Origin: an uncultured bacterium
GTDB taxonomy: Bacteria; Hydrogenedentota; Hydrogenedentia; Hydrogenedentales; CAILVY01
DNA length: 64,000 nt
Assembly: GCA_937951485.1 (NCBI GenBank)
Contig: CALEDJ010000011.1
Location: 1-64,000 of the forward strand
Direction: 5' to 3'
This document shows, piece after piece, positions 18,964 through 31,501 of this stretch (positions are counted from its first letter, which is position 1; every line of letters begins with the position of its first letter). Made by a program: the position numbers and the translations under genes. Under the pieces are notes generated by a model. The model searched no databases. It was not told the origin of the DNA and saw nothing but the letters and a program-made list of their open reading frames with translations.

Positions 18964-19854
18964 TCAATGCAGGTGCTTGTTGACTTCAGCGCGGATGGCG
19001 CAAATGTGCTCCGGGGTGGTGCCGCAGCATCCGCCGACGATGTTCGCGCCTGCCTCGATCAGCCTGGGAACAAACCCTGCCATGAATTCGGGGGTTTCCG
19101 GATAGACAATGCCGTTTTCGCTTTGCACGGGCTGACCCGCATTGGGATTGACGAGAATGGGAGCCTCTGGGGCTGCTTCGCGCAAGGCCCGCACGACGGC
19201 TACCATGTCCTCGGATCCGAAACTGCAGTTTGCACCCAGGCCGTCCGCGCCGGCTTCCAGACATGCCGCCGCCATCTCTGCCGGCGTCACCCCCATCATC
19301 GTCCGGGGCGTGCCGCCCGCCGTGGAGGCATAGGTGAAACTGCAGATGATCTCCAGCGCCGTATTCTCCTTCACGGCGCGGATGGCCGTGCACGCTTCGT
19401 CAATGGCGGAGAAGGTCTCCACGATGCAGGCGTCCGCGCCGCCGCGTTCCAGCGCCTGCGCCTGCTCTTTGAACGCCTCGTACAATGCGTCCTCCGAAAT
19501 TTCCCCCGTGATGAGGAATTTTCCCGACGGGCCGATGGACGCGAGGACATGCATGTCCGGCCCGGCAGCCTCGCGCGAGAGGCGCGCCGCCGCCTCGTTC
19601 AGTTCCGCCGCGCGGTCACCCAGGCCGAAGGCGTCCAGTTTGCAGCGCGTGCCGCCGAAACTGTTGGTGCTGATGATGTCGCTGCCCGCGTTGATGTAAT
19701 CCTCCGCGATGCGCCGCACCACGTCCGGATGATCCACGTTCCACAGTTCCGGGCATTCCCCCGCCTGCATGCCCGCCGCAATCAGCAGTGTGCCCCAGCC
19801 GCCATCCGCCACAAGGACCTTTTTCTCCCGAAGCGTTTCCGTGATTGAAACCAT
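18964..19854 (-). CDS. Homocysteine S-methyltransferase family protein
   Basis: The ATG at 19854 (MVSITETLREKKVLVADGGW) is preferred over 19905, whose extra 17 residues look non-coding. The 296-residue protein is a single Hcy-binding barrel with the zinc ligands Cys210 (GANCSFG), Cys276 and Cys277 (GGCCGTTPEH). These match the triad of betaine-homocysteine methyltransferase and of the MetH N-terminal module. It should accept a methyl group onto homocysteine to form methionine. The corrinoid protein and URO-D methyltransferase genes immediately upstream on the same strand suggest the methyl group arrives via methyl-cobalamin, not betaine or folate. Confidence 0.88.
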   Translation of the reverse strand: MVSITETLREKKVLVADGGWGTLLIAAGMQAGECPELWNVDHPDVVRRIAEDYINAGSDIISTNSFGGTRCKLDAFGLGDRAAELNEAAARLSREAAGPDMHVLASIGPSGKFLITGEISEDALYEAFKEQAQALERGGADACIVETFSAIDEACTAIRAVKENTALEIICSFTYASTAGGTPRTMMGVTPAEMAAACLEAGADGLGANCSFGSEDMVAVVRALREAAPEAPILVNPNAGQPVQSENGIVYPETPEFMAGFVPRLIEAGANIVGGCCGTTPEHICAIRAEVNKHLH

Positions 19855-19975
19855 GTCGTTGTTCCCACGTTCTGTTGGCGGACCCATTCCGCGCAGCAAT
19901 GACAACGCGCCTGGTCCGTTTCCGGAGCAGGCGCATACGATATACGGGCCAAGGCGCCGCGCAGGGGGCGCGGCG

Positions 19976-20656
19976 TCAATTGTTGCAGATTTTTTCGTCG
20001 AGGTACTCGATGATGCCCTGGGGATCGGGGGCGTATGCGTCCGCGCCGATCTTGTCGCAGAACTCCTGGGTCAGCGGGGCGCCGCCCACGCAGACAATCG
20101 TGGCCGGAACTTTTTCGCGGATCAACTTGACCGTCTTGTCCATGTTGACCATCGTTGTGGTCAGGAGGGCACTCAGACCGACGACGGCACCGGGGTTCTT
20201 TTCCAGTTCCGCGAGGAATTTCTCCGGCGGAGTATCCACGCCAAGATCAATCACCTTCCATCCCGCGCCTTCGAGCATCATCCGCACCAGATTCTTGCCG
20301 ATGTCGTGCAGATCGCCCTGAACCGTGCCGATGATGAAAGTGCCCTTGTGTTTGGCCGCGCCGGAGTCAAAGGCCGGTTTCAATTGTTCCATGCCCGCAT
20401 TCATGGCTTTCGCCGCCATCAGCAGGTCCGGCACGAAGACTTCATTCTTGCTGAACTTCTTGCCCACCACGCTCATGCCAGCCATCAGCCCGCATGTGAG
20501 CACGATATTCGGGTCCATGCCCCCCGCCAGCGCCTGGGCGGTCAGTTCCTTTACGCCATCCAGCCCTTTCATGTCCGGCGGATACGGTGCGTTCTTGTCC
20601 ACCTTGCCCCGTTCCACGCACATTGCGATGCGGTCCACGATTTCCATGTCTGACAT
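19976..20656 (-). CDS. Corrinoid protein (methyltransferase cobalamin-binding subunit)
   Basis: The 226-residue protein has the two-part build of MtmC/MtbC/MtaC-type corrinoid proteins. A helical cap contains VGKKFSKNEVFVPDLLMAAK. A Rossmann cobalamin domain follows, with the base-off ligand motif Asp115-x-His117-x-x-Gly120 (GDLHDIGKNLV). It shuttles a methyl group between a substrate methyltransferase and an acceptor enzyme. Here the partners are presumably the URO-D protein 33 nt upstream and the homocysteine methyltransferase downstream. The N-terminal 25 residues (KVDKNAPYPPDM) differ from common family members. Confidence 0.93.
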   Translation of the reverse strand: MSDMEIVDRIAMCVERGKVDKNAPYPPDMKGLDGVKELTAQALAGGMDPNIVLTCGLMAGMSVVGKKFSKNEVFVPDLLMAAKAMNAGMEQLKPAFDSGAAKHKGTFIIGTVQGDLHDIGKNLVRMMLEGAGWKVIDLGVDTPPEKFLAELEKNPGAVVGLSALLTTTMVNMDKTVKLIREKVPATIVCVGGAPLTQEFCDKIGADAYAPDPQGIIEYLDEKICNN

Positions 20657-20689
20657 AAGCGTTTCTCCTCTGAAAGTTCGTAGAATATA

Positions 20690-21766
20690 CTACGAATAGG
20701 TTCCCAATTCCAAACCCCGCTCCACAAAGTAGCGATAACTCTCGTAAGACACCTGATCCGGGATCGAGTGATCCGAATGCAGGGCGTAACCATAGTTCCC
20801 CTTCACGATCGGAATCTTCTCGGTCAATTCGCGGTCTATCGCGCTTTTGTCATTGTTATACAAGACACGCACATCCAGCCCGCCCATGAACGACAGCCGG
20901 TCGCCGAAATCGCGGTAGAGTTGCAGCAGGTCCATGCCGGCCTTTACTTCGATCACCTGGAGGCAGTCCATCCCAGCCTCAATCAAGCCCGGCACGAGTG
21001 GCGCCACATAACCGCAGGAATGCACGATCACCGGCAACCCCTTGCTTTTCGCGTAGCGCATGGTGGCGAAGTGACCGGGCTGTATCATCTCCCGGTACAT
21101 TGCGGGCGACATGAACGGCCGGTTCTTGAACCCCATGTCCTCGTAAAACCACAGGCCGTCCGGCAATCCTTCCTCGGAAAAGAGGATTTCCATCAGGTCA
21201 ATGGTCAGCCGGGCGTAGGTGTTCACCATATCTTTAACCCAGTCGGGGTCCGTGGCCATGCCCACGAGCATGTGCTCATGCCCGCACACCGGAGGCATCA
21301 ATTCAAAGACGCCGGAACCGGCCCATACGAAAAAGCGGTTTTTTTCCGCCGCTTCACGTCGCGCCGACCGGTATCCGTCGAAATTGATACGCGCCCGGTC
21401 CGCCGTCAAAAATGGCTTGATATGCTCCTCCCAGCCGGCGCGGTCCTTCACCAGAAAATCCACATGTTCCGGCGTCGTGTCGTGTTGCTTGTGACGTCGC
21501 AGCACCGCGCCGTTGCCGTCCCGCGTCAGAACCGTTTCCTCGGTCTCCTCGATGATCTCCGGCGCCATGTCGTGGCGCGCTGCGGTATTGAATGCCCACA
21601 TCATTTGCAGATCAAAGCCGAAGTGGTCTTCGAGGCTCATTCCAGGCGTGAGATGGCCTTCACGCGTCCAGCGGCTCAGCGTATCAGCCCAGAAGTGCTC
21701 GTAAAGACCGATCCGGTCCACCGGCTTGCGCGCCAGGATATTGCGCATCCGTTCCTGTCCGGTCAT
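20690..21766 (-). CDS. URO-D family corrinoid methyltransferase
   Basis: The ATG at 21766 (MTGQERMRNILARKPVDRIG) is the best family start; a TTG at 21775 with gggag upstream is an alternative. The 358-residue barrel belongs to the uroporphyrinogen decarboxylase superfamily but sits beside a corrinoid protein, so methyl transfer is more likely than haem synthesis. His249-x-Cys251 in VIVHSCG matches the zinc-binding H-x-C of MtaA/CmuA-type enzymes. The methyl donor is unknown. It is the first gene of a probable three-gene operon, and a candidate promoter lies at 21843-21872. Confidence 0.85.
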   Translation of the reverse strand: MTGQERMRNILARKPVDRIGLYEHFWADTLSRWTREGHLTPGMSLEDHFGFDLQMMWAFNTAARHDMAPEIIEETEETVLTRDGNGAVLRRHKQHDTTPEHVDFLVKDRAGWEEHIKPFLTADRARINFDGYRSARREAAEKNRFFVWAGSGVFELMPPVCGHEHMLVGMATDPDWVKDMVNTYARLTIDLMEILFSEEGLPDGLWFYEDMGFKNRPFMSPAMYREMIQPGHFATMRYAKSKGLPVIVHSCGYVAPLVPGLIEAGMDCLQVIEVKAGMDLLQLYRDFGDRLSFMGGLDVRVLYNNDKSAIDRELTEKIPIVKGNYGYALHSDHSIPDQVSYESYRYFVERGLELGTYS

Positions 21767-21842
21767 GGCCGTCAAAATACCATTCTCCCCATCGAGCCAC
21801 ACATTGCATATGCTTCGCTGTTTCACCGGCCCAACCGGGGCA

Positions 21843-21872
21843 ATCTTAGTAAACCCATTGAAAATGAGTCAA
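21843..21872 (-). promoter_or_regulatory. Candidate promoter of the methyltransferase operon
   Basis: On the minus strand, TTGACT (21867-21872) and TAAGAT (21843-21848) are 18 bp apart. Transcription would start about 70 nt before the URO-D ATG. The remaining intergenic sequence up to 22042 holds a ggatgc/gcatcc hairpin near 21921 and no gene. Confidence 0.45.
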
Positions 21873-22042: not shown

Positions 22043-23302
22043 TCAAGGAGTTTCCGGGGAAGGCCGGGTGGGCGGCGCTATGGCAAGGGCGGCGCGGTGT
22101 TTTCCGTACTCAAGCAGTCCCCATTGCAGCATAAGACCGCCAATAATGAGCAGCGGCGTGTAATGAAACGGCATGGCGATGCCGTAGCGGCCGACGAGGT
22201 AGCCGAAAATGCTGCTGCCGACGAATCCGCCGACCCCGACCGCGCCTTCATTTATCGTCAACCGGCGATGTTTGTGCGCGGGATCCGCAAGGCTGTAATA
22301 GGCGCTGGAGAAGAAGGCGACCCCCAGATTGGCGCCCACGACGATGAAACATAATCCCATGACAGCCAGGCTGCGGGTGCTTCCGAGCACCCAGAACGCG
22401 CCCGCAGACAGCACTTGAGACCAGAACAGCACCTGAAAGCGATGTCGCCATGCGTGGGTTCTGCCGAGCACGACGAATGCCGCCCCCGTCGCGAAGGACA
22501 TCGCCCCGGCGATGAACGAGAACTTTGTCGCCGGGCCGTAGGCCAGAAACGGGATGGAATCCGTCTCGAAAAGAAGACGCAACATCCCCGTTGACACGAG
22601 TTCCTCCACACGTTTGGGATACACCGACCGCGTCACGGCGATAAGCATGTTCGCGATGAATGTGGCGCACCAACCGCAATAAAGATACGCCTCGCTGGCC
22701 CGGTCATGGTCTGCGCGCGCCGCGAGTTGCTCTGCCGATGCCGTCCCGAAATACGACTTCTCGTGCGGCAGGCTCTTGATGAGCGCCAGGCATACAAGAC
22801 ACAGCAGCACCAGGATCACGAAGGGCCATCGAAAGTCGGCGTCAAACAGCGGTCCCGCGAAGAACGGGCTTACCGCAAAACCGAAACTCCAGGAAAGATT
22901 GAACCAGGCCATGTGGCGCGTGCGTTGCACCGGGTCGGGATCGGACCCGACCCAGGAATGCAACGCAGGCCAGGCAAGCGCCAGACCCCCATGCGCCACG
23001 CTGCTCACGACCAGGCAGGGAATCGGGGTGTTGAAAAACGGCATCAGCCCGATGCCAATCGTGTACACGGCCACACCAAGAAACGCCCAATTCAACCCGT
23101 TCCTTGCGCGGGTTACCATGCCCGCCGACACAATGCAGCAGACGGCGTAGGCTGCGCTGTGCGCCGCGCCAAAGGCCCCCGACATCGCTGCGCCGCCCCC
23201 CAGCCGCTGATAGAGAAAAAAGGGAATGGCCGTGATGCCCACCATGACTGCGAAATCAAGCAGGAAACCCACGAAGCAGATTTTGTAATGCGGTTTGAAC
23301 AT
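22043..23302 (-). CDS. MFS transporter
   Basis: The ATG at 23302 (MFKPHYKICFVGFLLDFAVM) starts a 419-residue protein with about twelve membrane helices in two halves. The cytoplasmic loop between halves is charged (LIKSLPHEKSYFGTASAEQ). A frame extending to 23365 adds 21 residues that would overlap a candidate promoter. Motifs place it in the major facilitator superfamily, but the substrate is unknown. It lies just upstream of the methyltransferase operon on the same strand, 276 nt away, so a role in importing the methylated substrate is possible but unproven. Confidence 0.85.
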   Translation of the reverse strand: MFKPHYKICFVGFLLDFAVMVGITAIPFFLYQRLGGGAAMSGAFGAAHSAAYAVCCIVSAGMVTRARNGLNWAFLGVAVYTIGIGLMPFFNTPIPCLVVSSVAHGGLALAWPALHSWVGSDPDPVQRTRHMAWFNLSWSFGFAVSPFFAGPLFDADFRWPFVILVLLCLVCLALIKSLPHEKSYFGTASAEQLAARADHDRASEAYLYCGWCATFIANMLIAVTRSVYPKRVEELVSTGMLRLLFETDSIPFLAYGPATKFSFIAGAMSFATGAAFVVLGRTHAWRHRFQVLFWSQVLSAGAFWVLGSTRSLAVMGLCFIVVGANLGVAFFSSAYYSLADPAHKHRRLTINEGAVGVGGFVGSSIFGYLVGRYGIAMPFHYTPLLIIGGLMLQWGLLEYGKHRAALAIAPPTRPSPETP

Positions 23303-23311
23303 CGGCGCGAG

Positions 23312-23340
23312 AGTGTAGGCTTTTCCCCGTGTCAAGTCAA
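23312..23340 (-). promoter_or_regulatory. Candidate promoter giving a near-leaderless MFS mRNA
   Basis: TTGACT (23335-23340) and TACACT (23312-23317) are 17 bp apart on the minus strand. The -10 ends only 9 nt before the ATG at 23302, so the transcript would have almost no leader. No Shine-Dalgarno is seen, which agrees with this. Confidence 0.45.
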
Positions 23341-23409
23341 ATCCATTTTTCCAGAATTTGCCCAATAATTCGTATTCAAAGACGGGGAGCCGACAGGGGA
23401 ATTATTTTC

Positions 23410-30139: not shown

Positions 30140-30239
30140 ACAGGCTTCAGCCTGTTGTGAGTCGGGCGGGCCGCCCGCGGCTCCAGGCGGGATATTGGCG
30201 AACATCAGGGAACCAGCCTGCCATTGAGGCTGGTTCCCT
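30140..30239. repeat. Three consecutive palindromes downstream of the ACBP gene
   Basis: They are acaggcttcagcctgt (30140-30155), a gggcggg/ccgccc palindrome near 30164-30178, and a strong hairpin agggaaccagcct/aggctggttccct (30207-30219 with 30227-30239, 13 bp, 7-nt loop). None is followed by a T-run. They could still end transcription or stabilise the ACBP mRNA. Confidence 0.65.
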
Positions 30240-30264
30240 GCCTTCTGAGCGAAGCCCACTCTGC

Positions 30265-30309
30265 GTCCTTGTTATCCTTGTTGTCTTTGCTGTCCTTGCT
30301 GTCCTTATG
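30265..30309. repeat. 9-bp repeats (gtccttgct type)
   Basis: Five consecutive nonamers (gtccttgtt, atccttgtt, gtctttgct, gtccttgct, gtccttatg) end 37 nt before the next ATG. This is the complement of the aaggacNNN arrays elsewhere. Confidence 0.85.
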
Positions 30310-30346
30310 TGGTATGCTTTTCCGATTTCCGCAAAAGGAACGCACA

Positions 30347-31501
30347 ATGCGCACGTCTCTCGAACGATTCAATGACTGTATGCAATATCGGTCCAGCGAC
30401 CGCCGGCCGAATCATGAATTGGGTGTGTGGCCGCAGACGGCGCAGCGCTGGCGCGACGAAAATCCGGAGGCCGTGCGGGATTTCACCTGGGACTGGTTTG
30501 TGGATGAACCCGCCCTGGATTTCGACCGCCGCGAATACATTCCCATCAACTACGGGATGATTCCGCCCTTCGAGCCGGAAGTAATCGAGGAGACTCCCGA
30601 ATACATCGTCGCCCGGGACCGGCTGGGCATTGTCACGCGGGCGCTGAAGGCCGGCACGGTCAACGGGTGCCGGATGAGCATGGATCAGCACCTGTCGCAT
30701 CCCGTGGCCTGTCTGGAGGACTTCCAGGACATCAAGCGCCGTCTGGTCCCCGCGTTGCCGGAACGCTATCCGCCTGACCTTGACGCGATGATCGCCCGCT
30801 GGAAAACCCGCGATTATCCGCTCACGCTCGGTCAGAATGGCGCGGCGAACGGTTTCTACTGGCGCGCGCGGGAATTCATGGGCACGGAGGCGCTGTCCTT
30901 CGCATTCTTTGAGCAGCCCGAACTGGTGCATGAAATCATGGAGTGCTATTGTGAACTCATCATCGAAACCAGCCGTCCCGTGCTCGAAAAGATCACCGTG
31001 GATTGCTTCGTCCTGAACGAAGACTTCGCCATGAAATCCGGACCGCTCCTGGGACCGGACCTTTACCGCGAATTCATATTGCCACGACTCAAACGCATGG
31101 TGGACTTCTTCCGCGGCCAGGGGGTTCGCCATTTCGCGGTGGATTCCGACGGCGATCCCGCCCCGCTGATTCCGCTCATGATGGATGCGGGGGTGGACGT
31201 CATCTGGCCCATTGAACGCGCCGCCGGCGTCAGCCCGGTGATGTGGCGCAAGCGTTTCGGTAAGGAACTGCGCCTGTGGGGCGGGGTGGACAAGCGCGAA
31301 CTCGCCAAAGGCCCTGAAGCCATCCGCACCCATCTGCGCGAATTCATCCCTCTTATCGAAGAGGGCGGCTTCATCCCTACCGTGGACCACACCGTCCCGC
31401 CCGACGTTTCCTGGGATAACTTCCGCTACTACATGGACTGCAAGATGGCGTTGCTGGCAGGCGACTTCGGGAAACTGCAGCGAAATTCAAAGGCGCTTTG
31501 A
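30347..31501 (+). CDS. URO-D superfamily protein, second paralogue
   Basis: The ATG at 30347 (MRTSLERFNDCMQYRSSDRR) has aaaggaa 7 nt upstream. The frame open to 30224 runs through repeats and is not used. The 384-residue barrel resembles uroporphyrinogen decarboxylase-like methyltransferases (DRRPNHELGVWPQTAQRW, ETSRPVLEKITVDCFVLNED). At the position of the zinc H-x-C motif of the first paralogue it reads FAVDSDGDPAPLIPL, with acidic residues instead. No corrinoid protein gene is adjacent. Function is unknown, and classical haem URO-D activity seems unlikely. Confidence 0.8.
   Translation: MRTSLERFNDCMQYRSSDRRPNHELGVWPQTAQRWRDENPEAVRDFTWDWFVDEPALDFDRREYIPINYGMIPPFEPEVIEETPEYIVARDRLGIVTRALKAGTVNGCRMSMDQHLSHPVACLEDFQDIKRRLVPALPERYPPDLDAMIARWKTRDYPLTLGQNGAANGFYWRAREFMGTEALSFAFFEQPELVHEIMECYCELIIETSRPVLEKITVDCFVLNEDFAMKSGPLLGPDLYREFILPRLKRMVDFFRGQGVRHFAVDSDGDPAPLIPLMMDAGVDVIWPIERAAGVSPVMWRKRFGKELRLWGGVDKRELAKGPEAIRTHLREFIPLIEEGGFIPTVDHTVPPDVSWDNFRYYMDCKMALLAGDFGKLQRNSKAL

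Follow-up and report, generated by a model that had tools for sequence, protein, structure and literature searches.

A three-gene operon in an uncultured member of the Hydrogenedentota that probably encodes a split, folate-free, MetH-like methyl-transfer unit with a URO-D family donor enzyme

The 64,000-nt stretch of contig CALEDJ010000011.1 (GCA_937951485.1) analysed here, which we call the window, comes from a member of the Hydrogenedentota and carries on its minus strand an operon in which the gene for a URO-D superfamily protein is followed by those for a free-standing corrinoid protein (CORR) and a homocysteine methyltransferase (HCY), with gaps of 33 and 121 nt (Table 1). The first-pass annotation of the window had described three adjacent genes on this strand, namely a URO-D family protein with an H-x-C motif, a base-off corrinoid protein with D-x-H-x-x-G and a homocysteine-binding zinc barrel with three named cysteines, and had read them as a methionine-synthase-like unit; the genes, their domains and every one of these motifs could be read in the sequence as described. 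The gene for the URO-D protein most likely starts at ATG 21766 rather than at GTG 21826, because the alignments of its relatives begin there.

Table 1. Genes, motifs and flanking features of the operon (window coordinates)
Feature	Coordinates	Strand	Basis or remark
URO-D superfamily protein, 358 aa, proposed methyl-donor:corrinoid methyltransferase (MT1)	20690..21766	-	PF01208, fold match, relatives
CORR, free-standing corrinoid protein, 226 aa, helical cap and B12-binding domain, proposed methyl carrier	19976..20656	-	PF02607 + PF02310
HCY, homocysteine S-methyltransferase, 296 aa, MetH-type Zn barrel	18964..19854	-	PF02574
H249-S-C251 (HxC), presumed Zn-site motif of the URO-D protein	21014..21022	-	invariant in family, aligns with MtaA
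D332-H333 of the URO-D protein, presumed third metal or substrate ligand	20768..20773	-	alignment with HemE
D-L-H-D-I-G (D115-G120), base-off/His-on cobalamin motif of CORR	20297..20314	-	sequence reading
Cys210 codon of HCY, Zn ligand	19225..19227	-	alignment with MetH Cys255
Cys276-Cys277 codons of HCY, Zn ligands (GGCCGT)	19024..19029	-	alignment with MetH Cys321-322
Sigma-70-like promoter match TTGACT-18-TAAGAT, upstream of the URO-D gene	21843..21872	-	consensus match 9/12; alone no evidence of function
MFS gene	22043-23365	-	277 nt upstream of the operon

The URO-D protein matched its family at E 1.2e-13. Searching the PDB by phmmer with this sequence alone gave no match, whereas an alignment profile and a fold search did; with the AlphaFold2 model (mean pLDDT 96.4), the fold search returned HemE (Z 28.6) and the methyltransferase MtaA (4ay7/4ay8, Z 25.7-25.8). 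In alignments, H249-S-C251 falls on the H-x-C of MtaA and D332-H333 on the position of a His in HemE (4wsh); H249-S-C251, D332 and H333 are all invariant in 81 aligned family members. The complete His-Cys-Cys zinc site of MtaA and MtbA is absent, as D332-H333 stands where the third ligand, a Cys, would be, and the protein falls below the NCBIfam cut-offs for the MtaA/MtbA families (34.6 bits vs. 244, 30.1 vs. 400 and 27.0 vs. 235.4). Since URO-D family members that methylate thiols have His-Cys-Cys zinc sites (PMC10418091), the D332-H333 pair in place of the second Cys weakly suggests a non-thiol donor. The window contains a second URO-D family protein (30224-31501, plus strand), located beside ParA/ParB-like genes; it has D-S-D where H-x-C is expected but shares with the operon protein a D-H-T-V-P motif close to the C-terminus.

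CORR, with its D115-L-H117-D-I-G120 motif, is the sole free-standing PF02607 protein found in this genome (assembly of 4.55 Mb, 94% complete), and its closest solved relative is 1y80 (175 bits). The same genome gave 21 URO-D family (PF01208) matches, HemE included, vs. this one free-standing corrinoid protein. HCY matched PF02574 (E 1.8e-69) and no other Pfam family. Its Cys210, Cys276 and Cys277 (counted from ATG 19854) are conserved at 97% or above in an alignment with relatives (34 sequences), and they align with Cys255, Cys321 and Cys322 of the MetH encoded in the same genome. HCY is a PF02574 barrel and does not have the MetE C-terminal fold of the core methionine synthases.

The arrangement of these genes was compared across 68 Hydrogenedentota genomes, several of them incomplete metagenome-assembled genomes (MAGs), with presence statistics that ignore relatedness. 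CORR occurs in 51 of the 68 genomes and HCY (orthologues at 54-77% identity) in 46, with both present in 40 (Fisher p 0.002); the URO-D orthologue occurs in 30, all but one of which (29) also have CORR (p 0.0002). Among the 40 genomes with both CORR and HCY, the two genes lie on the same strand within ~0.9 kb in 19, while URO-D and CORR are separated by 200 nt or less in 23 of the 29 genomes having both, and all three genes are linked in 12. Of the 19 CORR-HCY pairs, seven come from genomes that lack the URO-D orthologue, some of which have MtaB instead. For any two given genes in a genome of 5 Mb to adjoin so often, chance is no explanation of the CORR-HCY-URO-D arrangement. URO-D candidates are also more numerous in CORR-bearing genomes (median 17 vs. 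4, p 0.0016, from loose first-look counts that ignore relatedness).

Relatives display the operon in several modular forms: 1) URO-D-CORR-HCY, as in the window, in L030 and L031; 2) the same three genes with a second URO-D gene ahead and MtaB behind, in L251 and L230; 3) URO-D-CORR-ACT-HCY-MtaB in L034 and L037, where ACT is a stand-alone Met_synt_B12 (PF02965) protein, i.e. the activation domain of MetH, a module otherwise typical of MetH; 4) CORR-ACT-HCY-MtaB with no URO-D orthologue, in L245; 5) CORR-HCY-MtaB in L246; 6) CORR-ACT-HCY in L247; 7) CORR-DUF169-HCY in L242-L244, all genomes of one family (f5); and 8) HCY followed directly by the corrinoid reactivase RACE, in L225, L248 and L249. 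MtaB in these operons belongs to PF12176, the methanol:corrinoid methyltransferase family. The constant part is therefore CORR plus HCY, and the donor-side enzyme and the reactivase vary between relatives. Such a constant core with exchangeable partners is what a methionine-forming corrinoid hub should show, and it would be difficult to account for if HCY had no functional tie to the genes around it. In the f5 genomes, the gene between CORR and HCY takes the position held by ACT elsewhere; it is DUF169 (PF02596) in L242, with those of L243 and L244 looking alike, and DUF169 may take part in the transfer of methyl groups by corrinoids. The ACT-like proteins (L037 4658-5368, L034 9874-10584, L042 3562-4266) end in C-x2-C-x4-C, invariant in six aligned sequences, which is a possible Fe-S or metal site.

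Starting from the observed gene content, motifs, conserved linkage and co-occurrence, we infer each chemical step, its direction and the donor from sequence and gene context. We surmise, with a probability of about 0.6, that the operon encodes a MetH-like methyl-transfer unit that is split and folate-free. In it, the URO-D protein, acting as MT1, would demethylate a small methylated donor, probably not a thiol, and load the methyl group onto Co(I) of CORR; HCY would activate the thiolate of homocysteine at its three-Cys zinc site and transfer the methyl group from methyl-Co(III)-CORR to it, yielding methionine and Co(I). Corrinoid that becomes oxidised would be re-reduced by a RACE encoded on another contig (C23), its place likely being taken in some relatives by the free-standing activation protein of MetH type that is encoded next to CORR. 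CORR would thus be a hub that in relatives may also serve donor enzymes of the MtaB type and perhaps further ones of the URO-D family. As for the reactivase, which the first-pass annotation had named as worth looking for together with a separate MetH or MetE, the C23 RACE has the full RACo domain set and is not linked to the operon; RACEs adjoining HCY in relatives are 45-47% identical to it vs. 34-35% to the RACE of this genome located in an acs cluster on contig C15. A reactivase within the operon itself was considered and discarded, as no stand-alone MetH-type activation protein was found in this genome and the RACE on C23 is there instead.

The closest known system is the split MetH/MtgBCDE of roseobacters (PMC5764234, PMC12366255, PMC12478193). 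Like the split MetH of Phaeobacter inhibens and MtgBCDE of Ruegeria pomeroyi, the operon has a separate PF02574 subunit and a separate corrinoid protein with cap and B12-binding domains, and reactivation would be of the RamA/RACE type. It differs from them as follows: 1) theirs includes a pterin subunit (MtgD, PGA1_c16040) and the operon has none, with no PF00809 gene beside CORR or HCY; 2) their donor enzyme is of the MttB family (PF06253) and acts on betaine, whereas here it would be URO-D or MtaB, PF06253 being absent from the operon, although no genome-wide search for that family was made; and 3) most Hydrogenedentota genomes keep a full MetH. In MtgBCDE, a single corrinoid protein has been proposed to join betaine demethylation to methionine synthesis (PMC5764234, PMC12478193); this proposed sharing of one carrier between a demethylase and a homocysteine methyltransferase (PMC12478193) is a precedent for a corrinoid hub. 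As in canonical MetH, there is a homocysteine Zn barrel together with cap and B12 domains, and the activation domain is a separate protein in some relatives; unlike in MetH, the modules are three separate genes and the folate-binding module is missing. MtvABC, OdmABCD, MtoABC and CdmBCA (PMC13222342, PMC8630106) likewise have a URO-D MT1 and a small corrinoid protein in one operon, but their second methyltransferase (MT2) is a pterin-binding folate methyltransferase, whereas the acceptor gene here is HCY, with no linked pterin MT2. Type 1 mlp clusters (PMC10418091) share H-x-C URO-D proteins, a corrinoid protein and the lack of a folate methyltransferase in the cluster; they comprise two or three SCMT-like proteins with His-Cys-Cys (Mlp2 and Mlp3 with corrinoid protein and RACE) and a linked RACE, as compared with one D-H URO-D protein, HCY and an unlinked RACE here. 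The core methionine synthases MesA-MesC (PMC7857596) are also folate-independent and thought to draw methyl groups from corrinoid proteins, but they are MetE-type barrels and HCY is of the MetH type (PF02574). In the open-access literature, outside which most subscription papers lie, we found no published account that couples URO-D or MtaB enzymes with a homocysteine methyltransferase. The scheme from donor to corrinoid to homocysteine, as a variant of known split MetH systems, is well backed by gene context, and the reading of the first-pass annotation is in our view partly supported.

Several observations weigh against this scheme. Contig C29 encodes a complete MetH (1206 aa) in which the homocysteine, pterin, cap, B12 and activation domains are all present, so methionine can also be made from methyl-folate. 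Across the phylum, URO-D and HCY show no association in presence (p 0.44); 6 genomes have HCY but no CORR and 11 have CORR but no HCY, some of these assemblies being incomplete. Within the window operon, CORR and HCY are separated by the longer of the two gaps, and in other phyla sampled the URO-D orthologue mostly has no adjoining corrinoid gene. Lastly, Bmt of P. inhibens, a related split-MetH enzyme, takes betaine or dimethylsulfoniopropionate (DMSP) directly in vitro (PMC12366255). Given the complete MetH, the operon is not the only methionine synthase of the cell; we rejected a role as a replacement of MetH, and a long MetH reading frame is present in most genomes across the phylum. The suggestion of the first-pass annotation that a URO-D enzyme supplies methyl groups for methionine synthesis in place of the folate domain holds to the extent that conserved gene order backs a split unit, and fails insofar as the folate route is not replaced.

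The same annotation had proposed that the MFS transporter could import the methylated donor. The gene lies upstream on the same strand, yet it does not adjoin the operon in the relatives examined, so conservation lends the proposal no support. An attenuator between CORR and HCY was also rejected, as the GC-rich hairpin found there is not clearly above shuffled sequence (z -1.86) and has no T-run.

A broader version of the scheme, in which the single CORR would be the methyl hub of the entire cell, with many URO-D and MtaB-type enzymes removing methyl groups from methanol or methoxylated compounds and the hub handing these groups straight to homocysteine, is a tentative idea that we regard as doubtful; loose counts of URO-D proteins in relatives reach up to ~40.

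Alternatively, CORR may mainly donate methyl groups to tetrahydrofolate via an AcsE-like methyltransferase, feeding one-carbon/Wood-Ljungdahl metabolism as in methoxydotrophic acetogens, with HCY as a side outlet or as a taker of folate methyl groups by the reverse route. The acs cluster on C15 (L113, G000:C15, 2713-11246) encodes AcsB, the large subunit of the corrinoid iron-sulfur protein, RACE and a pterin-binding methyltransferase, followed by a FolD-like gene; the genome therefore has part of the Wood-Ljungdahl pathway. PF00809 occurs at three places in the genome: in MetH, in the methyltransferase of the acs cluster and in one strong match that is presumably FolP. Bacterial URO-D/MtaB systems normally finish with a folate methyltransferase (PMC10418091, PMC13222342), which would favor this route. 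Against it, the pterin methyltransferase of the acs cluster adjoins its own corrinoid iron-sulfur protein and RACE, and in the Hydrogenedentota loci examined no folate methyltransferase linked to CORR was found while HCY is linked, making this explanation unlikely.

A second alternative, that HCY is a stand-alone enzyme using betaine, DMSP or S-methylmethionine directly, its neighborhood reflecting shared methyl metabolism with no shared carrier, draws on the activity of P. inhibens Bmt, which in vitro yields methionine from DMSP and betaine without cobalamin (PMC12366255), and on the many genomes of family f2 in which HCY is not beside CORR. HCY scores 168 bits against T. maritima MetH and 83 bits against human BHMT, a roughly two-fold difference that makes MetH its nearer solved relative, and lies under the NCBIfam cut-off for BHMT (NF005718, 252.8 vs. 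338). It also pairs with CORR plus the corrinoid reactivases ACT or RACE in many genomes, and the association in presence between CORR and HCY reported above (relatedness ignored) points in the same direction. We thus consider direct use of such donors quite unlikely.

Very unlikely, in our judgment, is a reversed role for the URO-D protein, as an MtaA-like acceptor enzyme methylating a small thiol (or selenide) from methyl-CORR, with homocysteine/methionine as the other partner and possibly the methyl source. The MtaA-like fold, the H-x-C motif and weak NCBIfam matches to the MtaA/MtbA families are consistent with such a role. However, the third position of the metal site is the invariant D332-H333 and not the Cys of thiol-methylating members, methyl transfer from methionine to Co(I) is thermodynamically unfavourable, and it is MtaB, a donor-side enzyme, that replaces URO-D in sister operons.

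As judged by sequence, the URO-D enzyme is part of a wider family, with 80 relatives in many phyla that are 59-78% identical to it, and its gene usually adjoins CORR in the Hydrogenedentota. Outside this phylum, orthologues lie near GH116 (L035), ThuA/Gfo-Idh (L096) and LacI and AraC regulators, which suggests a carbohydrate-derived methylated substrate; we did not name a substrate from these neighbors, as carbohydrate-related genes recur in few loci each and are too weak a guide. In a Ruminiclostridium MAG (L051 2397-6517), the orthologue is followed by CobT and RACE, a corrinoid link outside the Hydrogenedentota. That the URO-D protein is a carbohydrate-related enzyme and no methyltransferase, adjoining the corrinoid gene by happenstance in this phylum, would fit other-phylum orthologues near LacI/AraC regulators, glycoside hydrolases, ThuA and sugar-isomerase-like genes with no corrinoid gene adjoining, but we deem it very improbable given the invariant metal-site motif, the linkage to CORR in 24 of the 29 genomes of this phylum that have both, the CobT and RACE genes of L051, and CORR matches elsewhere in 49 of the 50 genomes searched (Hydrogenedentota included) and in most of the other-phylum genomes, although part of these matches are MetH or weak.

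Returning to the split, folate-free unit, the question is directly testable because operons of relatives carry a known kind of donor enzyme, MtaB, with methanol as donor. If the reading is right, a route to methionine with a MetH-type barrel and no folate in the unit would exist alongside the MetE-type core synthases, and two large, poorly understood groups of corrinoid enzymes, the URO-D and MtaB homologues, would be tied to methionine synthesis in an uncultured phylum. Were the cell-wide hub also true, these bacteria would make methionine and S-adenosylmethionine from environmental methyl groups without folate.

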